From: Tetraselmis striata | Taxonomy: Eukaryota; Chlorophyta; Chlorodendrophyceae; Chlorodendrales; Chlorodendraceae | Assembly (NCBI GenBank): GCA_006384855.1 | Contig: VCJN01003119.1 | Coordinates: 1 to 64,000 of the forward strand | Length of the DNA: 64,000 nt | Direction: 5' to 3' | Part shown: positions 300 through 61,530 of the stretch, piece after piece | Layout: each line of letters starts with the position of its first letter | Numbering within the stretch: position 1 is the stretch's first letter | Translations under genes and position numbers: made by a program | The notes under the pieces: generated by a model | Told to the model about the DNA's origin: nothing | Database searches by the model: none | Seen by the model: the letters and a program-made list of their open reading frames with translations, nothing else

Positions 300-332
300 G
301 GGGGGGCGGGGGGGGGGGGGGGGGGGGGGGGG
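300..332. repeat. G homopolymer at a duplication border
   Basis: Thirty-two G with one C at 307. It abuts the left end of the WD40-TRP duplicate directly. Similar tracts recur throughout the window. Confidence 0.9.
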
Positions 333-1528
333 CACCTTCTCCACCGCCGACTTGGACTTTCGGGCAAAGCTCTCCACCATCATGTGCAACTTGCTCCTCT
401 GGCCGAACCAGACAACGGCGCAGCGTAGTCAATAAGACTGGGAGTTTTTCTGTCAACCCCCTACATTCCCCCCAATAAAGAGTATATCCCGACACCTACA
501 ACAGGGAACCGCAGCTATGCGAGCACAACCATAAGCTGCAGTGGCATCGTCCGAGGTGAGAGGCACTCACCAAGCCATCGTCCTGGGAGGTCGGCGTGGC
601 GGCCTCCGACGGCGCGTGCTCGGCCATCATGTGCGAGTAGTCGCGGATGAAGGAGTGAATCGTGAGGCACGCACCGCCGCCTTCGTGCGCCTCCACCGCG
701 TTTATCAGGTCGCCGGTGTCCCAATTCCATAGCCGGATGGTGGAGCCCTTGCTGCCGGAGGCCACCCGGGCCGCGCCTCGTGGAACACCACCGACGTGAT
801 TTCTCCGGTGTGGCCATGGCGCACAATGGAACCGCATTCATCAGCAACCCCCATGCGTCTCCCAAGGGAAGGCAGGCACATCCAACATGCTCGGGGCAGG
901 CACGCAAGCTGGTTCTCACCCGCAGCAGCCGCTTCATGGCGTGGCTGGCCATGCACCAGATTATGACAAAACAGCCGCCGCCCTTGGCGGAGCCAGCATG
1001 GCTGCCGTGGCCGGTGGCCGCCGTTGCCATGTGTGGGTGAGTGGCGGCGGCCGTCACCGGCGGTAGGATATTGCCAAAGGTGTCCTCATTCTCAATGCCC
1101 GGCCCTTGCTCACAGTTGCTTTCCGTCATAATATGGTCTGCAAACATGTCGCCTGCGCGGAAAGGGTGAGCGCAACAGATGAGATTGGTGGTTGTGGTGC
1201 TCGCATTTGCTCACATTTGCTGATGTGTTTAGGATGAGGCTGACATAGCGGGGCTGGGCATGATGGGAGGAGGAAGTCGGGACGGCTCTACCCCGGAGGT
1301 CCCTTACCGGTCATGGTGTTTGCGAGCGACCAAATGAGGTTGTCCGCCGCGCGCTCCCACGTATTATATGCTGCCATCCACTCTCCGGGGCCATCATCCC
1401 TCGCGAAGCCTCCTCAGTGCCGCCGGTGATCACGATGCGGCCGCTGGGGTGCATCACGATCCAGTTGACGCCGTCCTTGCCGCTCAGCTCCCGCACGAAG
1501 CAGCCCCGTGCGGGGCCGCCTGAACGTA
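331..1528 (-). pseudogene. Broken partial duplicate of the WD40-TRP channel gene (parts of exons 1-4)
   Basis: This stretch aligns by eye almost base for base with about 17,066-18,229, which holds the end of exon 1 and exons 2, 3 and part of 4 of the WD40-TRP gene, introns included. It cannot make the same product. (a) The acceptor of the exon-3 equivalent reads GCGCCATGGCC where the intact gene has GCACCAGGGCC, so the AG is lost. (b) One base is missing near 767-785 (CACCCGGGCCGCG against CACCCAGGGCCGCG), a frameshift. (c) About five extra bases near 1360-1375 shift the frame at the end of the exon-1 equivalent. There is also an in-frame 3-base insertion in the exon-2 equivalent. The left end stops exactly at a G homopolymer. 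The right end stops inside exon 1, so the start codon and N terminus are absent. It is a segmental DNA copy, not a processed one, because introns are kept. Confidence 0.88.
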
Positions 1529-4562: not shown

Positions 4563-6661
4563 ACCGCCCCGGCTTTCCACCCTTCTTCCACGCTCTTCTG
4601 ACTCAACACGTCTCATTGAAACTATGCGTAAAATTGCACGGAAAATTCAAAAGTGATATTATGATGAGTTATACATTGGGCGGGTTTGCAAGACTTCTGC
4701 AAGCTATGACATCTGTTATGTCCCTTTTTATTTACGATCAGTGGCAAGTCAGAGCTCGAGACCGCTCCGTGCAAGCATGCAGTCCAGGATTTTATCAATA
4801 TATGATTGTAAATATTATGCACCACCCACGTATTGAAAGTCGCTGACGGGTAGTTGTGCGGTTGGGTGTACTACCTGGCGACTTTGCAGGCGCAAATGAC
4901 GTCGCCAATGCCTTTGGCTCGTCCGTGGGTGCCAAGGCCATTACCATCAAGCAGGCCATCATCATTGCCGCAGTATTCGAGTTTGCCGGCGCCGTGCTGC
5001 TTGGAGCGAATGTCACCGACACCGTCCGCAGTGGCATCGCAGACTACACCGCCTTTCTCGATGCACCCGAGCTATACATGTACGGCATGCTCAGCGTTCT
5101 CGTCGCCACTGGCACCTGGCTGCTACTCGCCTCCTACTGGGAGCTACCTGTGTCGACCACCCACTCGACCGTCGGCGGTGTTATCGGCATGGCTATCTGC
5201 GCTCGCGGTCCGAGCGCAGTGGTGTGGTACACGCCGACAAGCTCGTTCCCATACATGAAGGGCGTCGCTGCCATCGTTCTTTCATGGGTGTTCTCCCCCG
5301 TATTGTCCGGCGTCTTCTCCGCGCTCCTGTTCGGTCTGGTCCGGGCGACGGTACTACGCAGTCAGAACAGCTACGCGCGCTCTTGGTGGGTGTTCCCTAT
5401 CCTGGTGTTTGTCACAGTCTACGTAAACGCCTACTTTGTCATCTACAAAGGCGCCGGCTCTAAGACAAAGAACCTGTCCATCGGCACCGCGCTGTGGATT
5501 TCTGCCATCGCCGCCGGCGTGTCCGCCGTGATCGTCGCCGTTGTCGTGATTCCTTTCCTGAGGAAGCGCATTGCAGCCGCCGAAGAGGCCGAGAAGAATG
5601 CTGACGCGGCAAAGACGGTGGAGCAGGATCCGGAGTCACTTTCAACGGACGCCGAAAAGCCTTCCGACGAGCCGGAGAAGGTGCTGCGCTCGCCTCTGCA
5701 CGCCAGGTGGGAGTCGATGAAGCAGATCGGCATGTCTGTTTCCAAGGGTATGAATCATGACGTGCATCAGGCAGTTGATGATGACGACGATGTGCACAAC
5801 ATCCACGAGTTCTCCGAGAAGTTCGATCCCAAGACCGAGGAGTCCTTCAAGTACCTGCAGGTTTTCACCGCCATCTGCGACTCCTTCTCGCATGGTGCCA
5901 ACGATGTCGCCAACTCCATCGGCCCCTTTGCCGCCATTTGGGCCATCTACACATCACATGGCATCTCCAAGAAGGCAGAGGTCCCTATCTGGATCCTGGT
6001 CCTCGGTGGCTTCGGCATCGTGCTTGGCCTGGCTACCTATGGCTACAAGATCATGTGCGCCATTGGTGTCAAGATGTGCCGCATCACTCCCTCTCGTGGT
6101 TTCGCCATCGAGCTTGGCGCCGCCATTGTGATCGTTGTCGGCTCCCAGCTGGGCATTCCCCTGTCCACTACGCACTGCCAGGTGGGCTCCACCATTGGCG
6201 TGGGCGTGCTGGAGAGCGTGAAGAAGGGCGTCAACTGGAAGCTTGTCGGCCGCGTTTTCATCGGGTGGATCATGACCCTGATTGTGGTCGGCCTCACCAC
6301 TGCCGCCCTATTTGCTCAGGGCGCCTACGCGCCCTCCATCATCAACGTCGATGAGCGCAACTACCTGCAGGCCGGCATCGAGTCCAATGTGGATGGAATG
6401 ATTGTCGCGCTCAACCAGTCGGTGTACACGGATGCAGACCCGACCCTGCTCCCCATCCTGACCTACAATGCGCTGTGGCTGGGCAACATGACAGCAGACC
6501 CGGCAAAGAACCTCTACTCGCAGGCAGTGCCGGTGGAGGACTCTATCAGTCTGATGACAAACCAGACCTTCACCACTCTGTCCACCCTGGTGCCTGCCTC
6601 TGGCGGCGACCTGGCTGTCATTACAAGCGACGACACCTCCGTCTTCTTTGAGATGTCTTAA
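4458..6661 (+). CDS. PiT/SLC20-family phosphate transporter (Pho-89-like), 2 exons
   Basis: Sodium- or proton-coupled inorganic phosphate symporter of a cellular membrane. Exon 1 is 4458-4527 (ATG 4458, donor G|GTGACC); exon 2 is 4890-6661 (acceptor TTTGCAG|GC, stop TAA 6659-6661). The join is phase-consistent and gives 613 residues, normal for eukaryotic PiT proteins. The splice rebuilds the family signature GANDVANAFG at about residue 24, straight after a first membrane helix (FVAFGIG). A second copy, GANDVANSIG, begins near residue 359. These paired inverted PHO4 motifs define the family. A long hydrophilic acidic loop at about residues 245-340 separates the two halves, also typical. Further STTH motifs (LPVSTTHSTVGG, LSTTHCQVGS) fit PiT. 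Without exon 1 the reading frame would have no ATG, which supports the intron. The intron carries a 31-base C run starting 4 bases after the donor. Whether it uses Na+ or H+, and which membrane it is in, cannot be read from sequence. Confidence 0.93.
4532..4562 (+). repeat. C homopolymer directly after splice donor (PiT intron)
   Basis: Thirty-one C beginning four bases after the intron start at 4528. The same arrangement occurs in other genes on the opposite strand. Confidence 0.95.
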
Positions 6662-7453: not shown

Positions 7454-10400
7454 TTAGGAGGCCTGCGAGTCCCGCTCCTGCCGCAGCATCTGCGCCAGCT
7501 CCTCCCTGACAACCTGCCGCAGGATGACATCGCTGCCAGTGACGGCGGCGGCATTCCCGCCGGAGCCTATCAGGCGCTCCTCGAGACTGTTCATGTGGTC
7601 CTTCAGATCCTTCTTCATCGTCCTGCAAGCAAACCACACAAAAACCAGCGGCAGCGGGTGAACATCAAGCGCCCCCCGCTGGGGCTCTGTTGTATAATAT
7701 ATATATATATATATATTTAGGGTTATGATTGTATATATATACAATCATACTATACTATGCTGCTATGGTAGTATGCTATTATTACACTTTGCTAGGCAAT
7801 CATACTGTACTGTACCATAGTACTATATGGTATGTTTCGTTAAACGCGCCCAGTCCGGAGGCCTGGGGGTTACGACAAGGGCACCAACCGACCTCAATCG
7901 GTGTCTGACTGTAGTCCTAGTCCATACTATTGGACAATACTATTTTCTATACAATACCATACTAGACAATACAATACCATACCATGCCATGCCATACTAT
8001 TATACTATACTACACCATAGGGGGGAGGGGTCTGCGTTTCATTTGACGCTATACGTACCATCAACCGACGACTGCAATACAACCGGTACTGAGGTATACC
8101 TGTAGTTTGATCCTGTGCGTATCCAGGTTTCATCATGGCGATTCCGGCGGGGCCGGTATCACGCACGCCGCAGTCGCGGACAAAATGGTTTTAGAACAAG
8201 TAATCCCTAGGAAATGTCATAGAGAACAGTTTGATGCCAAAACGCAGAGCTCCGCGACACGATCTGTATACACCTCGTACTTACAGATTGTACACCGGTA
8301 CAACGCGGCATGCATACCTTTACTACTACATCGCGGTTGTTTTAGGGGCGGGGGAGGTAAGGGGAGGGGGGCGCACATGAGGTTGTGGGTCACGGAGTCG
8401 ATCTTCTTCCCCGACGACTCGTGCATGTGCTTCAGCAGCAAGTCGGACTGCTGTTTGAGCTTGCCCGCCAGGTTGTTCGTCACCGTGCCCGCCACGCCGG
8501 CCCACTCGGAGTCGCCGCCAGACACAGCTGCAGAAAGGCGGCACAGCGGTCCCCGCGCCGTCAGCCCCCTTGGCCCCCACCCTGGGTGCCAAGCCAGCAC
8601 CCTCGCGGCGTACGCCAAGTGGCCTCAGCAGCAGGGTGTGGGGGCGGTGCGGGCTGCACCTTCATTGTACGTGGACGTCAGCTCAGCCTTGGGGATCAGC
8701 ACCTGCCATCCAGGCGGACACCACCCCAGGGCAGAATCCTCAGGCAAGCGCGTGGTGCAGCTGATGGCGGCCGCTGAGTCGCGCGGCGGGTTTGGACCAG
8801 AAATTCCTAACTTTAATCCACGGCACTGTTTTATTTTAATCGGTTCTCATTACACGCTGGTACACAACGATGTATTTTATATGTCCGGTACCGCCGCGCG
8901 AGATCACGCGCCTGGCCTCGCAAAGAGCCCCATCGCGCCGACGATCGAACTATCAACCGCTTCTGAGGCCCGGGACTCAATTTAAGGTAATGCCGACTAC
9001 TACTAAAGTACTGAGTGCTGCAAAAGTGGCAAATACCGCTAGTCCCATCCTCGCGGTCGTTCGGAATCCGCTTGATATGAAACCCAGCTCTAGATTTTTA
9101 TGGGGGAATCATAACCTAGGGTATCAAAACCCAAGCGACAGGTTTCTGTTCAAATAGGTTCTGAAAGACCGCGAAAAAGTACGATGGGACTACATTTGCC
9201 GAATCTGCAGTACCAGTGGTTTAAACTGAGTGCCGGGCCCTTCAAACGTCTTGCACACTTCAATCCGACCCTCACCGTAGTGGCAATTGCATAGGGTATA
9301 CTGCTTGGGTGGTGTGCATAACACCCCGGCAACCACCGTTTGCTTGGTCCTTCGCGTTGCCATGTGTGGTATACAAAGGACAACACCACGCGCTCCCTCT
9401 CTCTCAGAGCTGTGAGCGCCTGGCATTGCACGCACCTGGAGGTACCGCGGCAGGTAGCCTCGGCTCCGCATGCGCTGCACCCCCAGGCTGAGCTCCACCC
9501 GGATGAGCAGCTCCGCGCGGTCCGCCGTCAGCTCCTTCTGCGCCGCCTGCAGCACCTTCTCAAAGCTCTCCCCCATCATCGCGATGACCAGGTTCAGCAG
9601 CAGGACGGTCTGCATGTACACAAAGGCCAGAAACATGATCTGGTAGAAGACGTCGTACTCCGCCGTCTCGAAAACCTCCAGGTCGATGTTGCCCAGCAGC
9701 ATGGCGTACACGCGCAGCATCGTGTTCCAGAGGTCTTGCCACAGCGTGGGGCGCGCAACTTGGGTCTCCATGCTGGGCCGCCACACACCTGCGGCCGGTC
9801 GGGGCTCAGTCGCCGTCACACCACCAAGCGGCGCCGTCCTGCACGCTGCGCTGCTGGAACGGCGGGGGACTTGGGGGGACTTGGGGGGCATGGGGCCGCA
9901 CCGAGGAAGCTGAAGGTGCTGCCCAGGCATAGGAAAGCCTGCAGGAAGATGAGGTACTTGATGTCGTTCGCGATGTTGATGATCATGCGCACGATGAGCC
10001 CGAACCGCGAGTCCGCTGCACGGGGTTTCCCAGAGTGGGGTTCATGGCGCAGCCGGCTCACCGATGGCACTCCCCTGGACCTCATGAACATCAGGGGGGT
10101 GCCCGCCCTGATCCGCACAGCCCCCCCCCCCCCCCCCTCCCCGCGGGTCGCTCACCTCTCAGAATGTTGAACACCTCCAACCAGCAGGTCATGCAAGCAA
10201 ACTGCGCCCAGGCCAGGCCCAAGTCCAGGTGGTACATGGACTCGGACTCGCCGGGCTCCATAGACACGCGTCCCAGGGCTGAGGCGCTCGAGGCCATGCA
10301 CATCGCAATCACCGCAACGTCCAGCAGGTTCCACCCGTTCCTGCACACCCGCAACCGTCGTCAGAGTCGACCTGGACGCCGCACTGTGTGAGCAGCAAGC

Positions 10401-13400
10401 CGCGCCCTGCCTTCCAGGCCCCCGGGAGCCGTCTCCACTGGGGTGGCATGTAAGGCGGAGAGGAAGGGGGGGGGGGGGGGGGGGGGGGGGCTACCCCAGG
10501 TACAGCGCCCAGCCTTCCTTGAAGAACTGTGATGGCCGGGCGGAGAATGGGAGAGGGAATGGGGGGGGGGGGGGGGGGGGGCGCGCTCTGAGTTGCCTGC
10601 GCCTCTAATGACGGCCATCGCACTGCTGCTCGGTTTCAATGTAAGTCACAAAGGGGGGGGGGGGGGGGGGGGAGTCACCTGCCCCAATTCCTGCAGCAGC
10701 ATCCAAATTGCGTTGGTCCCGCACAAGACGCTCGCAACCTGGCTGACGCGGGACCATGTGACGATGTCCCTCACAACGGATTCGTCGCCGCTCGCATCTG
10801 GGGGTGCGGCCCCACATGCGGTCAGAGCTGCGAGGCAACATGCACCCGTGCCGATGCAAGGACCGCGCCATCATCACGGGGGGGGGGGGGGGGGGGGGGG
10901 GGACTGCAGCGGCAATCACCGTGGAACCTCCCGAGCGTCTGCGTCATGTACAGGCTCACAGACATCAGCGTGGTGAAGACGATCAGCAGCATCGGCGTGA
11001 TCATGGACCGGTAGTACGCCTTACGGCCATACGTGACCCACTTGTAGTCCAGGATGGCGCGGCCGATGGGCGTGTCCAGGATCTCCATGGCGCCCTTGTT
11101 GAAGGCCAGGTGCAGCACGGAGCGCTCCAGCCCCGAGTTGCGCTCGTCTTCGCCCATGCTGAAGCCCTGGTCAAACTGGAACATGCCGGGAGGGATGCCG
11201 GCGGCGTACTGGAACGTCGGGACCGCGGCGACCACGTCGATTTCGCGCTCGGTGGGGTGCCTCTGCTCAAGGGGTGCCGCATACGGCAAGCAACGTCAGT
11301 GCCCCCTCCTCCCCCCCGCGGAAGTCGGACGTTTTTGTCCGTGCGTAACGTGGCCCTCCATACTCCACCCAGGTCCTCTTGTGAAACCCATGTGATTCTT
11401 AGGCTCCCCACACCCTACTACAAGCGTGTCCACGACCCCCCCCCCCCCCCCCCCCCCCAATTCACGGAAAGACAGCGCATGGCAGAAGGCAGCGGGGAGT
11501 AGAGCAGCGAGCACTGCAGCTGCATCATGGTGGAAAGCATGGCCCGTGAGTGAAGTGGGGGGGGGGGGGGGGGGGGGAGGTGGCGCACATGGACGGTGTG
11601 CGGCCCCCATATCTTCTCCGGGAACTGCGACGACGACCCCCTCGTGACGACGCTGCCGGGCTTCATCCTCAGCCGCGGGGTCTTGTTCCGCCATTTGCTG
11701 CGCCACAACAGGAGGGCCACCTCAGAGCGGTCCCTCTCCCATCGTGCGGCGTGCATGAGGTATCGGGGGGGGGGGGGGGGGGGGGGGATGGGCTAGGCTG
11801 GGTAGGGAAGGCTCGGCTCACTCGGCGTAGACAATGTCGTTGGCGAGGTGAAGACCCGTGGCCGCCAGTAGCCGCGCCGCCTGCTCCGAGTAGCCGGTGA
11901 TGAGCATGAGCAAGGTGGCAGTGCCGACGTCGTTGATGAAGGACACCGGCGCGCCGCCGTCCTCCGCCTGGACCACGTGCATCACGGAGTCCACGCAGGC
12001 CCCGACCGCCAGCTCCGAGGCGGCGTACGCCTCGGCCATCATCGGCTGCGGGGCGGGGGCAGACGCGGCAATCGTGTCAAGGTGGGGAGGTGCCGCAGCA
12101 CAGCGTCACACGGCGCCAGCCATGCCGGGCCAACAGCGGGAAAGCACTTGATACACGTATAGACATCGACTGCAGTGGCGACGTGATGTGTACTATGCAG
12201 CAGCGGGGATGGCTTTGTTAGCATATTGGTCAACACATACTGGAAAGCAGTTTGAGGGGGGCTCAATCAACGATTCTCAAATAACATCATTTACCAACCG
12301 GAACTTAGCTCAAACATTCGTTATAACTTCGGGAATAAATATGACAGCAACTTCGTAAAAAAGTCACAGCTTGAAAATGAGTGCTTATATGAGACCTGTA
12401 AACCCTAGCTTACTCTGGTCAGCAATCGCTATGACTGTAAAATTAGGGTTATAGGTTTTACATAAACCCTAAACTGAACCCTTTCCAGAATTTGACATGG
12501 AAGCTGATTTGGTCAAAGAGCAGATTCGAAGACAGTTCGAGTCAAGTTCCGCCGGGTGGCTGAAGATTACAATAGTTCGCGGCTGTAACAGTACCGTAAC
12601 AGACAATGGCATACGAGGTTACTCGCGTGATCACCCGGTATACCGACCAGTACCAGTACCATACAATGTGTAAGGAACAACATGTGCTGCAGGATATATC
12701 CGATGAACCACAAAAAAGATCCGAGGATTTAATGTTTGGAAGTTCTTAATCGAACTCTCCCCGTACACAAAACTGTGGCAGGCGGCCAGGGTCGATGTAC
12801 GCACCTGTGTGCCCAGGGATATGTTGGGCTTGATGCCGGCCTCGGAGGCCATCTTGAGGCAGTCTTGCAGCAGGGACACGTCGGTCACGATGTCGTGCAT
12901 GATTGTCTGCCCGCCCGGCCCCATGCTGCTGAGCGAGAGGGGCATCATGCGCGCCATCTCCCGAAGCGCGTCGGGCCCGCCCTGTCGGGGGAATGGGGCG
13001 GCATCAATACCCCTCGGGATCTTTTGCCAGACACCGTCCCGACCCGTCAAGCAGCGGTGGACGTTCATGTAGTCCGTGGCCCAACGGGAGGCGATCGAAA
13101 TTACGTATGGAAGAAAGGGCAAACGTAGGAGTGCACGAGCGCCGCTGTTTCCTCACATGATCATACAGGAACTTGGTCCGGAAGTACGGGGTCGCGGACT
13201 GCCCTGCCGCGGAGCCGTCCATGATGAACATCCCCGCGGTGGTGGTGCAAAGGCCCACCATCAGCCCAGCATCGCCCTGCCAGGCACCCAGCAGTCAGCG
13301 AGCCGGCTCTCGTGAGCGCATACTCCCCTGGGCCGCAGCCCGTCCACGCTCCGCCTCCCCCGCCAACGACCCGATCATCAGTGAGGATGCTGGCGCGCAG

Positions 13401-16400
13401 TCGGCATGGCCAGCGCCTGCTGCTGCATGCCCGGTCATGCACTGACTTCCTGACAGACAGCCCGCCGTTGCCAGGTGTGACAACATGAATTAACAGTTTC
13501 ATGAAGCAATGCCGTAGCAAGCACGACAACATAGCTGCTCTGTTCACTCCCGTCATTGATCCGAGGAGCATCCAGCCACATGGAGCACTTGGCCGTAGCA
13601 GCGGCAAGGAGGGAAATGGCTACGCCGCCATCACCTGGTGCAAGCGCGAAGGCGGCTGCGCCGTCCAGGTGACCGACATGACGGCGCATGGGAACTTGGC
13701 GAATAGCGCGTACTGCTCAATGGGAACCTGAACACGGCACACCAAGCCGCGCCCCGTCAGCCCAGCTGCCTAGCATGCGCGCGTGACTGTGGTCACAAGA
13801 GACAAGAAAGGTGGGAGCACTGCTGCTGCACGCTGGCATGGCGGCGGCAGGTGCTTGCGGAACCCGGTCGAGCGAAGGGGCGCTCACAATGACCCGTTTG
13901 GTGTTCTTCTTCCCGTCGTCCTTCCCATCCATGGCGGACTTGGGAGGCCCCCTGCAGCGACGGAGACGGAGGCACTGTCAGTCAGCAGCAGCGACGGGTG
14001 CGCCGGCCTACCTAAGGAGATACCGTGCGTGCATGCTCAAGCGGCAGAGGCAGACAAACGGCCGCCAATGCGCGGCCCACTCACCACAGCTTCACAGAGT
14101 TGTCCAGGCTGCTGGACAGCATGAAGTAGCCCTCCGCGTCCCACGCGATGCTGCTCACAATCTCCTCGTGCGCCAGCACGCTGCCGGTCTCCTTCCAGCT
14201 CAGCTGCGTCATCTCGTCCAGCTGAAAGTGGTGCAGCATGCCGGCCGCTGTGCCGACGGAGACCTGCGTGGATGGGTCGCCCGGCGAGCTGCGGGGCTGC
14301 CACGCAATGGTCCAGATGTTGGAGTAGCACTCCTTGATGGCAAACGTCTTCTTGCCCAGGTGGTACAGCAGCAGCCTGCGCGCACCGCCATGTCAGCCGG
14401 TGTGACCCCCACTCGCTTCCTCACAATCCATAACAGCACGACCGTCATCAGCAGCAGCAGTACGCGGCCCTCACCTGTCGTCCCAACCACCCGAGGCTAG
14501 CCAGGCGCCATCCGGGCTGAAAGCCACAGTGGTCACCCACTCCCGGTGGCAGTCCAGCGTTCTGAGGCAGTCCCACGACTGCGCGTCCCACAGGCGAACA
14601 GTCCTGCGGCACAGCATGGCCGGGCAGTACAGCTTGGTCGGTCAAGAGACAAACGGGCAACACCTACCACAATTCAGACCATTTGGGGACAGGGCGTGGA
14701 GGACACTGGGGAGAGGTCAATCAAGGCAGGGATTGCTGCTGGAGTGCGGTGTCGAGTGCGGCGTCAGGGTCGAAAAGCGGCACGCAGGTGCTTACGTGTC
14801 CACAGAAGAGGTGGCCAGCATGGCGCCGTCGGGGTGGAAGGCGGTGCTGCACACGCGCCCGGTGTGGCCGCACAGCTCCGCCAGGAGCCGGCCGCTGCAC
14901 ACATTGTACACACGGGCCACCTCGTCCGCCGCGCCCACGGCGAGTCTCCCTTTGCAGGGGCTGAAGGCCAGGCCGGTGGTGAAGTGGCGCAGCAGCTTGT
15001 TGCGGGAGGGCCGCTTGTCGCCCAGCGTGTGCAGCACGCGGCCGGTGGCGAGGTCCCACAGGGTGACAACGTACTCGTGGTCGCTGCTGGCGGCCAGCGT
15101 GCCGTCGGGCGTCACCGCCAGGTTGTGCTGCATCGAGCTGGGGCGCTCCCCCTCTGGCACCGGAGCCTCGAGGCGGTGCACGGAGCTGGGGCACGTCTTG
15201 TACTGCAGGCAGCACACAGATGGATGTGCATACAGGGTTTATTTGAATTATGAACTTATTTATTCCTTATTTGGCCGTGGTGTCTTGCGGATGGTGAGGT
15301 TGGAACCGGCGCGCCTCGCACGCGCGCAAGAAGCGACTTGTATTTAAGCCGCCCGACGTTTATAGTAGTATTTTTATAGCCACCCAGGGCGCGAGTTTTA
15401 TAGCCACCCGATGTTTATATAGTAGTGCTTTTACAGCTACCTGGAGCGGGTATGAGAGCCAATCGACTTTTATAGCACTTGGTAGCAACTCGTTTTTGAA
15501 TTCCCTGCATCTTACAGGTAATCATTAGTCGCTATTTGATATCACCAGCAGAAAGTTCTGGATTCGTCGACGGGGGGGGGGGGGGGGGGGGGGGGGTATA
15601 AGAGCCACTCTGTCACCGGCGTGACCAGCGCATCATCAGCAGGGCACGCTGCACGATGAAATGCGCCCATGCCGCACTCGCGCAGGGACACGGATCGGGC
15701 ATGATGGGTGGCGGGCACAGGCAGGGGAGCAGGGAGGCCAGTGTCCGCACCTCCCAGATGGACATTCTACCCTCGAGGCTGAGGGTGATGATGTGGTCTT
15801 GCCCGCACACAAAGTTGATGGACTTGAGCCAGGCGCGGCTGCCCGACTGCAACATTATGCGGGGTGGGGGCCAGGACGTCAGCGAGGACCTGTTGCATGC
15901 CAGCGCCCGCTCTATCCCGGAAGAGAGGGAGCGCGTCACTGGGCCAGGTGCAAGCTGCTCTGCGTGGGGGCAGCGCTAAGGGGTAAGAGCGCCACGGTGA
16001 GGGCGACATGGGAGGCAAGCCTCACCTGAAACGTGGAGATCATGCTGCCGCTGTCTGTGTCCCACAAGTTGACGACACCACCGGCGCATCCAGCCGCCAG
16101 CAGGCCGTCCTGTCGGCGTTAGAGCGGGTCAAGGCGTCAGCCGGCGCGGAGATGAGGCTCGGCGAGGTGGTGGCATTCGTCAATGAGCAGGGCGGCAATG
16201 CGTGGTGGCGTACGGCCCGGCAGGTGCACCTTTTGGAAGTCCACGCACAGCACCCAGAGTTTGTGCCTCAGCACCCGGGTGCAGGCGCCGCTAGTCAGGT
16301 GCCAGATGCGCACTGCGCACACACATACACCCAGGGGCTGATAAGCAGCCACAGGCACCATTCACAGGTGTGCACAGGTGCTGCGGGTGATGCCGGCAGG

Positions 16401-18846
16401 TGGGGGGGGGGGGGGGGGGGAGGGGCTTCCAGCAATGGCGGCTACCTGTTCTGTCAAAGGAGGAGCTGGCGAGCATATCTGGGCAGTCGAGGTACAATGG
16501 GGTGCGCCCCTCAGTTCAGTTGCCAATGCACAAAATGCAAGTCGGACGCGGGGATTCACCACGACATGCAAACATAAGCGGGCACGGCAGTAGTGACAAC
16601 GCCTTACGGAGCAAATGCACATGATGCCATATAGGCCAATGCTTGGGAACACACGTCATAGCGCCTCACGTTCTCACATGATGTCAAGGCCGCTACAGCA
16701 GCCATTCCCATGACAGACAACACTCACAGTCTGCATGTGCCCCTTCCTCTCAGCCCAGCTGCAAACTGCTGGGGAGCGCGGCGGCATCCGGGCCCACCTC
16801 CTTCGGGGCAGCTCCCCTTGAAGAGCGCGAGGTCTGTGATCTCGCGCTGGTGGCCGCACATGCGCCGCACCAGCTCCCCGGTGTCCATGCTCCACAGCGC
16901 CACGGTGCGGTCGTCCCCGCACGTGATGACGAGGTCCTCCGGCAGCTTCTGTTTGCCGTCCTCGCCCATCATCATTGTGCGGTGCACCTTCTGGTCAAAC
17001 GCGGAGTACGCGCCCGCGCTCCGCTTGTTGTCAAATGTCCAGTAGAGGCCATCCCACTCGGACACCTTCTCCACCGCCGATTTGGACTTTCGGACAAAGT
17101 TCTTCACCATCCTGTGCGACTTGCTCCTCTGGCCGAACCAGGCAGCGGTGTAGTCAGTAAGCAATCGGCTCGGAATTTTCCGGTCACCCCCCTTCATTCC
17201 CCCCAAGGGGCACCTATGACAGGGCACCATAGGCATGGCGAGCACAGCCATAAGCTGCAGTGGCATCGTCCCAGGTGGGAGGCGCTCACCAGGCCATCGT
17301 CCTGGGTGGTCGGCGTGGCGGCCTCCGACGGCGCCTGCTCGGCCATCATGCGCGAGTAGTCGCGGATGAAGGAGTGAATCATGAGGCACGCAACGCCGCC
17401 TTCGTGCGCCTCCACCGCGTACACCAGGTCGCCGGTGTCCCAGTTCCACAGCCGAATGGTGGAGCCCTTGCTGCCGGAGGCCACCCAGGGCCGCGTCTCG
17501 TGGAACACCACCGACGTGACCTCACCGGTGTGGCCCTGGTGCACAAGCCGCGTTCATCAGCAACCCCCTTGGGCCTCCCAGGGGAAGGCGGGCACATCCA
17601 ACCGGGTCGGCGCAGGCGCGCAAGCTGGTCCTCACCCGTAGCAGCCGCTTCATGGCGTGGCTGGCCATGCACCAGATTATGACAAAGCAGCCGCCGCCCT
17701 TGGCGGAGCCAGCAGGGCTGCCGTGGCCGGTGGCCGCCGTTGCCAGGTGTGGGTGAGTGGCGGCGGCCGTCACCGGCGGCAGGATGTTGCCAAAGGTGTC
17801 TTCCTCCTCGATGCCCGGCCCCTGCTCGCAGTTGCTTTCCGTCATATGGTCTGCGAACATGTCGCCTGCGCGGAAAGGGTGGGCGGCAGTGAGATCAGTG
17901 GTTGTGGTGCTCGCATTTGCTCACATTTGCTGATGTGTTTAGGTGGAGACTGATAGAGCGGGGCTGGGCATGATGGGAGGAGCGACTCGGGACGGCTCTA
18001 CCCCGGAGGTCCCGTACCGGTCATGGTGTTTGCGAGCGACCAAGTGAGGTTGTCCTCCGCGCGCTCCCACGTCTGCAGCCATCCGCTCTCTGGGGCCATC
18101 ATCCCTCGCGAAGCCTTCTCGCTGCCGCCGGTGATCACGACACGGCCGCTGGGGTGCATCACGGTACAGTTCACGCCGTCCTTGCCGCTCAGCTCCCGCA
18201 CGAAGCAACCCAGTGCGGGGCCGCCGGCAGCGGTGGCCTTGGGGGGCGTGGCGGGCTTACTGAGCACCACCATGCTGCCCACGTGCGTAACCTTGCGCCC
18301 ATCGCTGGTGAAGGCTCGCACGTTGCTCTCGCGGCGGCCGCCCTCCCGAAGGCTCCGAGGGCCACCAAGACCGAGCAGCCTCCTCTTCACCCGCTGCAGC
18401 GCGCTCTCTTTCTTCAGCGCATCCACCAGCGTGGTCCATCCGCTCGACGGAGGGGCAGGCTGAAATTCGGTCTGCTCCGAGGTGGGACCGCCTGGCGAGT
18501 TACTACTGGCCGCAGTGTGCAGCAGCAGCAGCCTTTCCAGGGGCTTGCCGGCCGAGGCGTGAGTCCCGGAGGAGGTGCTGCCGGTGTTAGAGCTCCGGGG
18601 GTTGTAGTACGGGCTGTTGGCGTCCCACTCCGGGACGGAGTGCTCAGCACTGCCGTCGGCGGTAGCCGGGGCGGTAGCAGCATGCCAGCGACCACTCCGA
18701 GCAGTAGTAGCAGCGCCTGTACCGGTGTTACCCATGGTACTGTCCGCCGTACTAAGACCGGCTATAAGGCCGCCGCCCTCAATAACCGGCTCGTCACTCG
18801 CCGGCGAGGTAGTCGGGCTGGCGCCCGGGAGCAGCGGCTCAGCCAT
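7454..18846 (-). CDS. WD40 beta-propeller / TRP-type cation channel fusion, 26 exons, 1,708 aa
   Basis: Predicted ion channel with a large N-terminal propeller region. Exons (plus-strand coordinates, 5' to 3'): 18018-18846, 17636-17865, 17290-17535, 16798-17128, 16446-16478, 16230-16312, 16026-16109, 15751-15846, 14796-15202, 14475-14603, 14085-14375, 13888-13951, 13635-13727, 13157-13276, 12805-12981, 11822-12045, 11589-11733, 10920-11262, 10679-10797, 10495-10526, 10156-10340, 9902-10015, 9436-9788, 8660-8738, 8377-8527, 7454-7622. Every junction is GT..AG and phase-matched; the sum, 5,127 bases, is divisible by three. Residues 1-about 210 are low complexity. About 13 WD40-like blades follow (for example SGSKGSTIRLWNWDTGDL, ASSSFDRTVRIWHLTSG, ATSSVDTTVRLWDAQSWD), enough for two propellers. 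From about residue 1195 comes a TRP-like module: EILDTPIGRAILDYKWVTYG before S1, S1-S4 through about 1420, S5 (KYLIFLQAFLCLGSTFSFL), pore loop AMLLGNIDLEVF near 1490 and S6 (LLLNLVIAMMGESFEKVL). The tail holds two heptad-like stretches. The pore resembles the G-x-G-D-L-E filter of TRPV-like channels. The least certain link is exon 13 to 14: reading through the donor would end the WD40 part alone at 13620. Confidence 0.82.
10121..11787. repeat. Cluster of eight G/C homopolymers in the channel introns
   Basis: Tracts at 10121-10137 (C), 10466-10490 (G), 10561-10581 (G), 10653-10672 (G), 10878-10902 (G), 11436-11458 (C), 11557-11577 (G) and 11765-11787 (G). All fall in introns of the - strand WD40-TRP gene between the exons for the pre-S1 region and S4. 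Four of them (10466, 10653, 10878, 11557) become C runs just after a splice donor in the transcript. Confidence 0.95.
12046..12804 (-). other. Long intron 15 of the WD40-TRP gene
   Basis: 759 bases, much more AT-rich than its flanks. The part 12405-12482 carries degenerate CCCTAAA/TTAGGGT words in both orientations. I cannot exclude a missed exon, but the flanking exons are phase-compatible without one. Confidence 0.6.
13620..13635 (-). other. Alternative end of the WD40 half: in-frame TAG just inside intron 13
   Basis: Exon 13 ends CACCAG|GTGATG. If the donor is not used, translation goes on four codons (V-M-A-A) to TAG at 13620-13622 and yields a WD40-only protein. Splicing to 13276 keeps phase 0 and completes what looks like another blade (VMSVTWTAQ joined to LMVGLCTTTAGMFIMDG). 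I prefer splicing. The arrangement would allow intron retention to switch between channel and non-channel forms; that is inference. Confidence 0.5.
15203..15750 (-). other. Intron 8 of the WD40-TRP gene
   Basis: AT-richer intron between exon 8 and exon 9 with short TATAGCCACCC-like repeats near 15370-15460 and a G tract at 15572-15596. No hidden exon recognised. Confidence 0.6.
16402..16420. repeat. G homopolymer in WD40-TRP intron 5
   Basis: In the transcript this is a C run starting 26 bases after the exon-5 donor (GTAGCC). Confidence 0.95.
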
Positions 18847-20633: not shown

Positions 20634-20740
20634 AAACTGTCTCGTAACCAGTTGCGAGCAAGGTCACCCCAGGTTGTTCAAGACCACACCCGGCTCGCCA
20701 TCCGAGTGTGATATTCTCGTCCGTGCGTCCGCGCGTCACT

Positions 20741-21598
20741 ATGTCAGATGGAGAAGAACCCGTCGTTGAGCCGACGCTCAAGTCGTTGCAAGCAGATGTG
20801 CGTGCATTGGCTACAGCTGTGGCACAATTGACGGCTCGTGATCGCGTTGTTGATGGAGAAGGGGCACATGGCTCCGGCTCAGGGCAGCGCATCGCGGGAC
20901 AGCCGACAGGCAGCGGGGGAGCCGCAGAGCGCCCCGCCGACTTGCTAGAGCTAGCCCAGAGCGGCCGTGTCGGAGCAAAATCCGTGAGTGCCGAGGATGA
21001 TTACCTCGCGGTGCCAGAGCTACTGCAGAGAGCAGAGTCTGGTTACGAGGCCGTTCGACCGGTCAGCCGAGTGCCTGGACTTTTCCCTTTGAGCACCGAC
21101 CTAACGAACGAGTACCTCAAGCAGGATGACGGGCGTCTGCCGGCCCAGGAGGAGTACTTGTGGATGTCGTGTTTCGGGGCCCACATGGCCGCCCTTTTCG
21201 TGGCGCTCGACGAGCTGCTACCTTACGTCCCCACCACTAACCAGGACTTCACCCCCTACCTCGCGAGAGCTCGGAATCACGCCGAGGCCATCGACAAGGC
21301 GTTTCGTTTTCGTCTAGCCTTCCTGCGGAGGCTGAATGAGATCAAGCGTGTGCACGGTGACCAAGGTGTTCTGGACGTGCTGCGAGCTCAGCATTTTCAG
21401 CCTGCTTCGGAGCATCTGGGTTCTGCGATTTTGGGGGACCTCATGAGGGACTACGAGCGTCGTGTCTTCGAGGCGACCGTTGCCAGCAGCGCCAAGGCGA
21501 CCGCTACTTCTCGAGTAGCGGCTGCAGCTGCAGGTCGCGGGCGTGGGCGAGGACGTGGCGGCGGACGTGGACGTGGCCGCGAAGGTGAGCACGAGTGA
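20741..21598 (+). CDS. Gag-like protein with RG-rich tail
   Basis: 285 residues from ATG 20741 (the frame opens at 20708 but only on GTG) to TGA at 21596-21598. First ORF of the recombinase element. The N terminus has a short heptad-like helix (SLQADVRALATAVAQL), the middle is a helical globular region (about 95-235) without a motif I know, and the C terminus is an RG repeat (about 262-280; GRGRGRGRGGGRGRGRE). Arg-Gly tails bind nucleic acid, as expected for a structural/Gag-type protein of a DIRS-order element that lacks a CCHC knuckle. Position upstream of the recombinase and length fit that role. Homology is not shown by sequence alone, so the Gag assignment is by position and composition. 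Confidence 0.65.
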   Translation: MSDGEEPVVEPTLKSLQADVRALATAVAQLTARDRVVDGEGAHGSGSGQRIAGQPTGSGGAAERPADLLELAQSGRVGAKSVSAEDDYLAVPELLQRAESGYEAVRPVSRVPGLFPLSTDLTNEYLKQDDGRLPAQEEYLWMSCFGAHMAALFVALDELLPYVPTTNQDFTPYLARARNHAEAIDKAFRFRLAFLRRLNEIKRVHGDQGVLDVLRAQHFQPASEHLGSAILGDLMRDYERRVFEATVASSAKATATSRVAAAAAGRGRGRGRGGGRGRGREGEHE

Positions 21599-21812
21599 CG
21601 GTGTGGGGCGCCGCTCGTCGGAGCTGCAGGAGCCTTGCGAGGCCACCTTTCGGTGACCGCCGCAAGACGCACCCTTGCAGCTCAACGGCGGGATGAGCGC
21701 CCTGTGTTAGGACCTGACCCCCCCCACCTTACAGACTTCATTTAGTCCTTCCTCGGTGCGGCGCTTCTTACAGCTACAGCCGAGTGCGGCTCAACCATCC
21801 GCACGCCTGCAC

Positions 21813-23261
21813 ATGGCGGCTCAACCATCCGCCTTTCTTACAACCCCATCTCTGCGTTCGTCGGTTGTTACACTACGTGTTACAACCGGTTCGCAACGAC
21901 CAAGTTTCGCGCGTGTACGTTACGCACGTGACAGGCGCTACGAGCGCGAAGGGCGCGCGGGGCGGCCCTCTTACCTGAACCTAGCCCCGCAAACCCGTAC
22001 TGGAGCTACTGCAAACCCGTCCAGCAACTACCGGCCAACCGCCGGGAACCTAACCGTTGCTGCCGAGTACTTTGCGAACAGTAGCCGTGCCGGTGGAACT
22101 CTGTCAGTAAAACGACGCACTTACGTAATTGACGAGCCCGCAGCTATCGCTCCATGGGCTGCGTCACTGCGATCTCGACTGCAGGACGCGTTCGGCTCTG
22201 ACGAGCTAGGCCAGCGGACGCTCGACCTGCTCTCCAGCTCCCTCAGCGCTCAGACCCTCAAGAGCTACGCCGGCAGGTTGTCTCAGTTCGCTGAGTTCTG
22301 CCACGACTCCGAGAACATCAGCCCGCTGGAAGCGACTACTGCTACTGTTGTTCGGTACGTTGCCTGGATCGGGGAGCGAGGGCACATCGCAGCTAAATCG
22401 CTGCAGCCCTACCTGTCTGCCATCAACACCTTCTTCGAGCTGCACAACCTCGTCCCGATCGCCAAGGACAGCCTACACCTCACTTCAGCAAGACGTGGGT
22501 TAATGTTGCGTCAGCGCCGACTGGACGCTGCCCCTTTGCGTGTCCCTCTGCCTGCGGATGTAGCTTACCGCTTCGTCTCAAAGGCCGAGCTAATTGTGTC
22601 TGCTCCTTACCCAGAGTCCCACCTCGACTACCGAGCCCTCTTGGCCTCGGTTATCAACTTCATGTTCTTTGCCAGGGGCCTTACTGGCGTCTCTTGTCGA
22701 GTGCAAGATGTGCATGTCGACACCTACAACATCACCTTGCAGATCTACCGCGAAAAGGGTCGCGCTGGCCGACGGGGACCCGACGACCTGCGCGTACTTC
22801 TCCTTCCAGTGTCCGAGCACCCTCGAGTGGCACGTCTCTTGCAGCACTTCATCGACAACGTCCAGTCTGTCCCCCTATTTACTGTTGGCTTGGTTGCCTC
22901 CAACTTCTGGGCTGTCAACGTGGCTGAGCAGTCAAAACCTTGGACTGCGGCTACGATGTCAGACTGGTTGTCTACAGCAGTCCACCTAGTCAACGCTGCC
23001 CCTCCTGCTGGCACTTCCTTGACTTCACACAGTCTACGCAAGGGCGCAGCCTCTGCAGCAAACGCCATCGGAGCGCCACTGTCCCACATCCGCTACCAAG
23101 GCGGTTGGGCCACTAACTCTGATGTCGTTCTGGACTACATCGACCCCAACGTTCTTCCTTCTCCTGGCGCGTGGTTCTTCTTTGGACACATCGCCCCCCT
23201 CCGCCACTTCCAAGTCCAACAGGACTCCGCAGCGGTGGCCTTCCCAGTGCCTCCTTCATGA
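21813..23261 (+). CDS. Tyrosine recombinase (DIRS/PAT-type integrase)
   Basis: 482 residues counted from ATG 21813; the open frame extends upstream to 21756 without ATG. It should cut and rejoin DNA through a 3'-phosphotyrosine link to integrate a circular intermediate. An N-terminal SAM-like core-binding region lies at about 125-240 (SAQTLKSYAGRLSQFAEFC). The catalytic region has Arg at about 288 (FFARGLTG), the H-x-x-R box at 406-409 (SHSLRKGAA), Trp at 432 in the place of the second His (QGGW) and the nucleophile Tyr at about 442 (LDYIDP). The catalytic set looks intact. Directly upstream is the Gag-like ORF. The frame is open and GC-rich, so the protein may be functional. Crypton recombinases are an alternative, but Cryptons do not have the split direct repeats seen here. 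Confidence 0.9.
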   Translation: MAAQPSAFLTTPSLRSSVVTLRVTTGSQRPSFARVRYARDRRYEREGRAGRPSYLNLAPQTRTGATANPSSNYRPTAGNLTVAAEYFANSSRAGGTLSVKRRTYVIDEPAAIAPWAASLRSRLQDAFGSDELGQRTLDLLSSSLSAQTLKSYAGRLSQFAEFCHDSENISPLEATTATVVRYVAWIGERGHIAAKSLQPYLSAINTFFELHNLVPIAKDSLHLTSARRGLMLRQRRLDAAPLRVPLPADVAYRFVSKAELIVSAPYPESHLDYRALLASVINFMFFARGLTGVSCRVQDVHVDTYNITLQIYREKGRAGRRGPDDLRVLLLPVSEHPRVARLLQHFIDNVQSVPLFTVGLVASNFWAVNVAEQSKPWTAATMSDWLSTAVHLVNAAPPAGTSLTSHSLRKGAASAANAIGAPLSHIRYQGGWATNSDVVLDYIDPNVLPSPGAWFFFGHIAPLRHFQVQQDSAAVAFPVPPS

Positions 23262-58528: not shown

Positions 58529-61003
58529 CTACCATTCGGCGCTGCCGTTGGCGGGGAAAAGCATCAGCGTCTCCGCGCCATCGGACGACAGCATGTTCAT
58601 GAACTGCGGCAGACTGATGCGGCCATTCTTGGCGCCCTCCACCTCGTTCAGCACCTCCCTCAGCTCCGCCACAGACTCCTCCGGCAGCAGCGCATGCAGC
58701 TCGTCCAGGTCGAGCTCGCCGCTGCTGTCGGTGTCCACCGCGGAGAAGAGGTCCTCCACCATTTCGCGCCAATCGTCCCGCTTCTGGACAGTCTCCCAGT
58801 TGAGCAGGGAGGCCAGCAGGTCCTCAAACTTTATGTCGGGGCAGGTCAAGCTCGTGGGGCCGTCTCCGTCCAGGAAGAGCGCGGCGCACTCGTCGGGGTC
58901 CGTCTCCAGCTGGCTCGCCATCTCCCATACCTCCGCGTCCGTGAGGTGGTTACCGCCCTGCTGCACCAGCTCGCTCAGCCCCTGTCGAAACTGTGTGAAG
59001 GTGACCGAGTCCTGGGTGCCGCCCAGCTCGGTGAACAACTCCCGCAGGTGCATGACCTGTGCCGCAGAAGCGCAGGTCAGGAAAAAAGCCCCCGCAAACC
59101 AAGGCGGCAAGCACAAGGGGTTAACGGTGCTGGACTGCAGCTAGCCTATGATTTGTGAGACGGCCAACTAAAACTTTATGGACGGGATGCAGAGAGGCAG
59201 AAGATATCCTCCAGAAAGCGGGGAGAGAGCGGGGGGGAGGGAAGGGGGGGACACCTGCGGGTCCCTCGAGTTGGAGATGCGGCCGGCAAGCTTCCGGAGC
59301 AGGGTCTTCTTGAGCACGTTGAAGGTGCCAAACATCTGCAGGCGACGGACGACGTCCGAGCTGAGCGTGTCCTCCTGCTTGGCACTTGCCTCGCCGCCCT
59401 CGCGCACCCACGGATTCTGCAGAGCCTGCACAGCCGTGGGGCGCTTCCGCGGGTCCTTTGCACGCCACCCATCGCATGTCAGCCCGCCACGAGGAGGCTC
59501 ACTGGGCCAGATTCACAAAGTGCCGCACACAGTGCCTCATGGCTACTCCGCAAGCAGCAAAGGCAGCGGCTGGAGGAGCCCGGGGGCACACCTTCTGGAG
59601 CAGGCTGGCCACAAAGTCCTTGGCGCCCTGGCTAACAAACTTCCAGTCCCCACTCTCCAGGTCCAGCGCGTCTCCCTTGACCTTGGCAAACACCTCCTCG
59701 ATGTCGTGATCGCTCATGTTGTCCGCCTTGAACGGCAGCTGCCCGCTCAGCAACAGGTAACACGACACGCCAGCCGCCCAGACATCGGCCTACCACCACC
59801 CCGGCAGCAACCACGTATCAGTGCAGGGCAGGCTGCAGATGCCAAAACACCCAGCCAGGCTTGTCCTAGCCGCGCAGCTGGTCCTGTGCCCCCCCCCCCC
59901 CCCCCCCCCCCTGGGCAGCAGCTGGGGCCTGCCGGACATCACCTCCGGGCCATATTCGCGATCGATGACCTCAGGCGCCATGAAGAAGGAGGTCCCGCAG
60001 CGCTCCGTTAGCACCTGCCACCACAAAGGCGGGAGCGAAGAGGTATTTGCCGCTTGTCAGGCACACCGTCGTGGGATGTGCAGGCCCAGCAGTACACGGG
60101 GCATCCAGGCGCCCCACCGTGCCGCGGGGCGCATAGACGGCGAGGCCGAAGTCGATCGCTTTCAGAGGCGCGTCCTCGCCCTCGTGGTGGAACAAAAAGT
60201 TCTCCGGTTTGATGTCGCGATGCACAACGCTGCACTTGTGGCACTGCGCCACTGTGCGCAGGATGTCGCGCATCAGCTCCGCCACGCGCGCCTGCGAAAT
60301 GCCACTCACCGGTGAGCTGAGGTCGCGGCGGTTGGCCCTCAGCCCATCGCACCCATCGCCAGCCACTGGCAGCCAGATGCGCAGGGCGTCGTCTCACCTC
60401 GGAGTAGTGGCCGTCACTCTCGTCAGCGAGGCGGCTGGCTAGCGTGCCGCCCGTGCAGGCCTCCATGACCATGTGCAGGTGACCCGGCGTCTTGAACACC
60501 TCGTACAGCGTGCAGATGTTGAGGCAGCGCCCCACGCGTGTCAGGACGTCGATCTCCGCCTGCTGCTTCTCCTGTGCGCTCAAGTTGCGCGGCAGCCGCA
60601 TCGTCTTGATCGCATAGGTGTTGTTATTGTTCCGGCTGACCACCTCGTGCACAATGCCAAAGCCCCCCTGCCCCAGCACCCGCTTGATCTCAAAGCGCTG
60701 CTCCAGTCCGTCCCCCATGATAACCTTGGCGGACCTGCGCATACCACCAGGCGGGTGCGGGTGAGATCCAAGTGCGGGCAGGTCCCAACTGGCAGTCACA
60801 TCCCTCCCCAAGTCGGGAGGCGCATGCCTGTGGACCGAGCATGTGGCAGCCTTGCGAGTGTGGCGCGGGACTGCTCCTCTCTTCGCCGGAACCCTGAAAG
60901 GCTTGGCGCCCCGGAGCACCGTAGACGAACCAGGCAGCTGGATGCTGGGGTTGGCGCGCACTCTGCGGCTGGTGAGGCCGGCGCTGGTTGTCCATAGCGA
61001 CAT
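58529..61003 (-). CDS. Calcium-dependent protein kinase (CDPK), 6 exons, 592 aa
   Basis: Ser/Thr kinase regulated by Ca2+ through fused EF-hands. Exons: 60398-61003, 60118-60291, 59943-60014, 59592-59789, 59255-59455, 58529-59056; all joins GT..AG, all phase 0. Kinase motifs: glycine loop GQGGFG (111-116), YAIK (Lys 133), HRDIKPEN (226-233), IDFGLA (Asp 249), FMAPEV (Ala-Pro-Glu 273-275), SGQLPF, and a DPRKRPTAVQALQNPW end. A junction helix follows (VLKKTLLRKLAGRI), then the EF-hand lobe. Only the third EF-hand loop (DTDSSGELDLDE, 525-536) has a full set of Ca2+ ligands; the others (near GGTQDSVTFTQF, LDGDGPTSL and EGAKNGRISLPQ) have lost key acidic positions. The start is uncertain: ATG 61003 is the longest frame, but ATG 60742 and ATG 60718 (M-G-D-G) are closer to the kinase. 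With the last, a Gly-2 would be present for possible N-myristoylation. Confidence 0.92.
59889..59911. repeat. C homopolymer in a CDPK intron
   Basis: G run in the transcript, about 30 bases after the donor at 59942. Confidence 0.95.
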
Positions 61004-61530
61004 GGTTGGCCTATTTGATCTTGCTGCAAACGGAAGGTGGAGAGGATGGGGGCGGGGGGGAGCTTGTGAGATGCGGGCAGAGGATCATCAGTATCATGGA
61101 AGAGTGGCATGCTGTGACAAGATGCAGCGAGGTGTTGGAGCAAGATGCGCACTATGGCTGCCAGGAGACATCGTTCTTTGCACCTTCCCCCCCCTTCCAC
61201 CCTCGCTCAGCCTCCACTCCACAGCGGTTTCGACCTCTGCCGATCCCCCCTCCCCAGTGTCGTATCACGCGCGCAGTCACGAGATATCCACTGCGCCGAA
61301 TGTATCTCGCGTCCCGTGGAGAAGGCTGAGGGGCTTTTCGGCGCGAGTAATGCCGAGGCTACTGGAGGGGGCGGTGCTGGGCCACTTGTGCGCGCACAGT
61401 CCAACCAGCGTCGCAAGTACCGATATACCTCGCCAGGCACGCGCCTCTTCGTGACCGCAGCAAAGGCGGCCTCGGCAAGTCGTTACTTGAGGGATGGAAG
61501 GGCACGGTGGTGTCAGGCCCGGAGGATGGT

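Follow-up and report, generated by a model that had tools for sequence, protein, structure and literature searches.

The question raised by this locus is whether a single algal gene can place two WD40 propellers in front of a TRP-type cation channel, a class of channel that is usually discussed as ankyrin- or melastatin-headed. The first-pass annotation of the window (bases 1-64000 of a contig of 221 kb, in an assembly of 224 Mb) had proposed that a TRP-type channel is fused to a double propeller of WD40 repeats, and this proposal is upheld here by the gene model, by the profile scores and by six paralogous loci that carry the two parts in the same order. Judged from these sequence comparisons, it is nearly certain that propellers and channel are fused in one gene.

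The gene model and its coding support

The minus-strand model was rebuilt from 18846 to 7454 out of pieces in three frames with GT-AG joins, and the 26 exons said to join in phase did so consistently at every join, giving a coding length of 5058 nt that corresponds to 1685 residues and a single terminal stop. In this exon model of our own 25 of 25 introns are GT-AG, a count that is partly circular because the exon ends were picked at GT/AG. Support that is independent of the choice of splice sites is provided by codon position 3, which is the GC-richest in each of the 26 exons. The effect of joining exons on the Ion_trans score gives further independent support for the model, since the open frame that holds E23 reaches 23.4 bits, below the cut-off of 25, and the joined channel part reaches 46.0 bits (E 5e-12). 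Profile search of the conceptual protein thus recovers Ion_trans on the joined channel and, on the full gene model, WD40 in Pfam at 188.4 bits (E 4.9e-57, cut-off 27); Ion_trans is absent among the 25 of 46 Pfam families listed for the full model. The features are as follows (A1, the E15-to-pre-S1 alignment, and A2, the channel profile, are described below).

7454..18846, minus strand: whole gene, 26 exons, conceptual protein of 1685 aa (exon model with phases)
18235..18846, minus strand: low-complexity N terminus, residues about 1-204, with a predicted start codon (model; start as chosen in the first-pass annotation)
15157..18234, minus strand: first propeller, counted by eye as seven blades of which blade 4 carries a long insert (WD40 in Pfam, both on the open frames and on the model; borders by eye)
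13157..15157, minus strand: second propeller, likewise counted by eye as seven blades, with E13-E14 as the last blade and exit (Pfam; E13-E14 kept in four paralogs)
13157..13727, minus strand: E13 and E14, the doubted junction (one open frame with WD40 in paralogs C1158 and C1905)
11589..12981, minus strand: linker, E15-E17, kept in paralogs, helical by eye (alignment A1; no Pfam match in the window gene)
10920..11265, minus strand: E18, pre-S1 region with KWVTYG, plus S1 (profile A1 match to TRPA1 pre-S1, E 6e-4; S1 hydropathy 1.84)
9902..10797, minus strand: E19-E22, S2 to S5 (Ion_trans alignment; hydropathy for S3, S4 and S5, not S2)
9436..9788, minus strand: E23, pore loop (GNIDLE, 9676-9693), S6 and its following helix (alignment to TRPV-type structures; A2 conservation)
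7454..8702, minus strand: E24-E26, C-terminal tail, probable coiled coil (partial alignment with paralog C1158; coiled coil by eye)

The low-complexity N terminus described earlier is present in the rebuilt model, and the tail that had been called a coiled coil aligns in part with that of C1158, the coiled coil itself being a judgment by eye. TGTAA, the green-algal poly(A) signal, is absent both from the 700 nt past the real stop and from 13620-13277, so that this motif is of no use as a test of gene boundaries. Homopolymer runs of G or C, 12-31 nt long, number 34 in the window; ten of them sit in 8 of the 25 introns of the WD40-channel gene, where 8 of the 10 are runs of C when read along the coding strand, and 7 of the 10 begin within 40 nt of the donor. 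Elsewhere in the window, a phosphate transporter (PHO4, 394 bits) occupies a single unbroken open frame at 4847-6661 on the plus strand. At 20648-23261 on the plus strand a long frame precedes one that resembles a tyrosine recombinase (Phage_int_SAM_1, E 6.6e-8), and the two together look like a DIRS-type element; an open frame at 60008-61084 on the minus strand matches part of a protein kinase (Pkinase, 62 bits). Scans of the window for tRNA and Rfam families returned none.

Propellers, linker and channel core

The WD40 blades of the first-pass annotation are present, and its number of about 13 becomes 14 when counted by eye, as two sets of seven in which E13-E14 supply the last blade; six individual WD40 stretches pass Pfam on the full model. 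Among solved structures the WD40 half is matched best by PDB 2ymu (E 3.3e-127, 10 stretches), which we take to be a tandem double propeller. The likeness is confined to the WD40 half and may reflect merely regular repeats, and the 2ymu protein, unlike the gene described here, has no channel.

About 170 residues, for which Pfam gave no match, separate the propellers from the membrane, at the position where TRPV and TRPA channels carry their ankyrins. Alignment A1, from E15 to the pre-S1 region, covers five genes and has 22 invariant columns, with only two of the five rows covering its first hundred or so columns. Linkers of three genes (window gene, C1158 and C2450) were scanned with Pfam: no family scored over its cut-off, and even with E allowed up to 10 there was no ankyrin match in the window gene, in C1158 or in two C2450 frames. 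The sole match in the linker scan, BILBO1_N (E 0.015, 16.1 bits), lies under its cut-off of 28.3 and was rejected. When the A1 profile was searched against solved structures, its pre-S1 part matched TRPA1 at the value listed above and TRPV5/6 at E 0.39 or worse, and no ankyrin match was found beyond the pre-S1 end.

In the channel itself the Ion_trans alignment spans profile positions 7-238 of 241, and the hydropathy threshold is reached by S1, S3, S4, S5 and S6. S2 falls below it, so that the count of six membrane segments given earlier is carried by the Ion_trans alignment. Hydropathy also slightly exceeds the threshold at residues 940-995 and 1078-1120, rises that we read as buried strands and helices. 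The GNIDLE pore motif is found, as had been reported, at residues 1480-1485; in the A2 alignment the same filter region reads GDFK, GAFD, NAYE and AAYE in the paralogs.

Comparisons with known channels place this core near the TRPV type. The NCBIfam model TIGR00870 ("trp") matches over the channel part at E 4.6e-18, with 64.7 bits against a full-length cut-off of 498.75. The E23 segment alone matches 57 solved sequences at E ≤0.001 (best 2.8e-9), each of them TRPV-type, OSM-9-like or Inactive, and the TRP-type helix after S6 is aligned through in OSM-9-like and TRPV1 and is kept in the paralogs. With A2, a channel profile made from five paralog sequences, the top matches among the best 60 of 190 are Inactive, OSM-9-like and TRPV1/4/5/6/3 at E 2.8e-18 to about 1e-12, with TRPA1 at E 2.6e-13 in the same 60. 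The PKD_channel profile stayed below its cut-off on the joined channel (15.3 versus 22.4 bits). These matches support TRPV-type channels and TRPA1 as the closest solved structures, and by homology the gene product is very probably a cation channel.

Paralogous loci and the integrity of the gene

A query with the channel matched twelve other contigs, and the best six (C1158, C1905, C133, C1043, C2450 and C2740) were read, the remaining matches being on C2273, C1536, C2764, C119, C2054 and C1111. At all six paralogous loci read, WD40 and Ion_trans share a strand and WD40 comes first, with Pfam WD40 scores that pass the cut-off in every case: 100.5 bits in C1158, 44.4 in C1905, 76 in C1043, 60 in C133, 42.2 and 47 in C2450, and 45.4 and 51.7 in C2740. 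The homologue with both domains that had been sought is thus found six times over inside the same genome. As controls we took six loci with other Ion_trans channels (C1185, C932, C2615, C326, C1913 and C2348), in which tblastn with the WD40 part gave no match at E<1e-3 within 6 kb upstream (0 of 6, best 1.4). Under the identical test three of the six paralogs pass; C133 misses because its WD40 sits beyond 6 kb (E 1e-6 in a wider search), and C2450 (E 0.11) and C2740 (0.027) fail, their WD40 being detected by Pfam only. Pfam, run on 10 of the 75 same-strand control ORFs of at least 100 aa, found no WD40. Three controls (C932, C2615 and C326) carry PKD_channel matches, and channels of that type in this genome therefore do not carry WD40 as a rule. 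A whole-genome search with PF00400 gave 4016 loose candidates, of which 150 were scored with none at the strict threshold, and indicates a rough density only; WD40-like matches crowd long open frames and clusters on C2379, C2605, C200 and other contigs.

The doubted step is the junction at E13-E14. A single open frame covers the final blades together with the E13-E14 sequence at C1158 116378-116836 and again at C1905 12954-11977. E13-E14 alone matches all four paralog segments tested (C1158, C1905, C1043 and C133) at 31.6 to 34.7 bits, and in each of the four none of 100 shuffled sequences reached the real score. In C1158 the open frames for residues 883-1030, 1016-1070 and 1064-1264 are directly consecutive, and with a C1158-derived query the gaps between matched pieces are 98 and 97 nt, the ends being approximate. 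In the window the connection of E14 to E15 depends on one inferred 175-nt intron. By these comparisons with the paralogs, the E13-E14 junction is real.

Two other accounts of the locus bear on whether it is one intact gene. A WD40 protein might have its end near 13157 or at the TAG of 13622-13620, with a separate channel gene downstream of it; retention of the intron after E13 does lead to a stop following VMAA, and the genome has many WD40 genes as well as many channel genes. Against a pair of neighbors stand the constant WD40-then-channel order in the six paralogs read, the open frame shared by WD40 and E13-E14 in C1158 and C1905, and the spacing in C1158, where successive matching frames are no more than about 100 nt apart, a distance of intron size that is too short for a terminator and a promoter, so that two separate genes are very unlikely. 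The same order at six loci, together with the shared open frame, identifies a paralogous family rather than neighboring genes, and by sequence the WD40-channel loci are such a family, with at least seven loci in the genome. Still less credible is the idea that the gene is a decaying pseudogene, which is prompted by a damaged relative nearby:

330..1520, minus strand: decayed partial copy of the end of E1 through E4, 88.1% identical, with insertions of 5 and 3 nt and a deletion of 1 nt in its exons, and AT at one of three acceptors

Gene and copy differ at 12/250, 14/251 and 26/251 sites of codon positions 1, 2 and 3 (4.8, 5.6 and 10.4%) and at 60/410 intron sites (14.6%), with 28 nonsynonymous and 21 synonymous differences among 251 codons. 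This pattern of exon and intron divergence, in raw counts rather than as a formal dN/dS, is consistent with constraint on the exons, and the lower divergence of positions 1 and 2 than of position 3 and introns argues against decay of the gene itself, as do its 1685 codons without a stop and the coding bias in all of its exons. The copy ends next to a 25-nt poly-G run.

Relation to known channels and proposed function

The gene resembles TRPV-type channels (TRPV1-6, OSM-9-like and Inactive) in pore loop, S6 and following helix, and from S3 to S6 by the paralog profile, but differs from them in its N terminus of WD40 propellers and an unassigned linker, in having no detectable ankyrins and in its length of 1685 aa. 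It resembles TRPA1 in the pre-S1 KW..YG region and in the channel profile, whereas the ankyrin stack of TRPA1 was not found. Because no N-terminal ankyrins were detected, we do not file the gene as a TRPV member. Our search of one open library, by titles and the starts of abstracts, found no WD40-TRP channel, and papers elsewhere or automatic annotation may hold one; as far as searched, a WD40-headed TRP-type channel is new. Chlamydomonas TRP1 (crTRP1), another TRP channel of an alga, likewise has cytosolic domains at its N terminus and a linker that is helical, but those domains include four ankyrin repeats where the gene here has WD40 propellers, and the term "WD40" does not occur in the main text of the crTRP1 paper (PMC6744473).

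Two further readings concern the ancestry of the protein. It could be a TRPV/TRPA-type channel whose ankyrins have diverged past recognition and in front of which WD40 was added, making the linker the true gating part and the propellers accessory. The conserved linker does occupy the ankyrin position, its pre-S1 end matches TRPA1 better than TRPV5/6, and by eye it has helix-turn-helix-like repeats; yet neither the Pfam scans of three linkers nor the profile search recovered an ankyrin, and we hold this origin to be unlikely but not negligible. More doubtful is the identification of the gene as the counterpart of Chlamydomonas TRP15/ADF1, a long TRP channel required for acid-induced deflagellation (PMC5068960, PMC8318260, PMC5701020) and proposed as its acid-activated Ca2+ route. 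Compared by description, both are very long algal TRP channels outside the metazoan clades, TRP15 having mutations up to residue 1724 and falling in no metazoan TRP clade (PMC5068960). One proposed causative mutation of TRP15 is W560L (PMC5068960), and W560 of the present protein is a WD40 blade tryptophan, a coincidence that we treat as a lead only. On the other side, where TRP15 has P1133 and P1155 the present protein has A and L, in a comparison where residue numbers need not correspond, and the available text of that paper uses WD40 for FAP16 and in one reference only, not for TRP15, and does not say which N-terminal domains TRP15 has (PMC5068960).

Taking the evidence as a whole, we have good confidence in a TRPV/TRPA-like channel subunit that is headed by a pair of WD40 propellers and a linker. 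One gene would give a six-segment TRP-type subunit whose cation pore is assigned by homology; the two propellers and the linker would form its N-terminal part in the cytosol, and its C-terminal tail is probably a coiled coil. The assembled channel would most likely be tetrameric and Ca2+-permeable. The propellers may hold the channel to, or take signals from, a partner that is plausibly ciliary or cytoskeletal, and signals would pass from them through the linker and pre-S1 region to a gate that, as envisaged in the first-pass annotation, would sit beneath the propeller scaffold. That the propellers act as a tether or sensor has about even chances. The genome holds 33 matches to light-harvesting proteins at E 1e-20 or better and two to radial-spoke proteins, as befits a photosynthetic organism with cilia, and the radial-spoke proteins make cilia available as a site for a putatively ciliary channel. 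Many light-harvesting copies score equally, some of them neighboring on one contig (C1767, C1647 and others).

The WD40-headed architecture suggests channels tied to internal cell machinery. We tentatively propose, at somewhat less than even probability, a distinct algal TRP subfamily that uses twin WD40 propellers, not ankyrins, as its cytosolic input module, in which ciliary or cytoskeletal partners bound to the propellers would operate a TRPV-like gate and which may include TRP15/ADF1. If true, a multi-gene WD40-propeller family would represent a different input module on the same TRP gate, and would open to testing both the role of the N-terminal module in TRP gating and the means by which channels in algae are kept in place at cilia or elsewhere.
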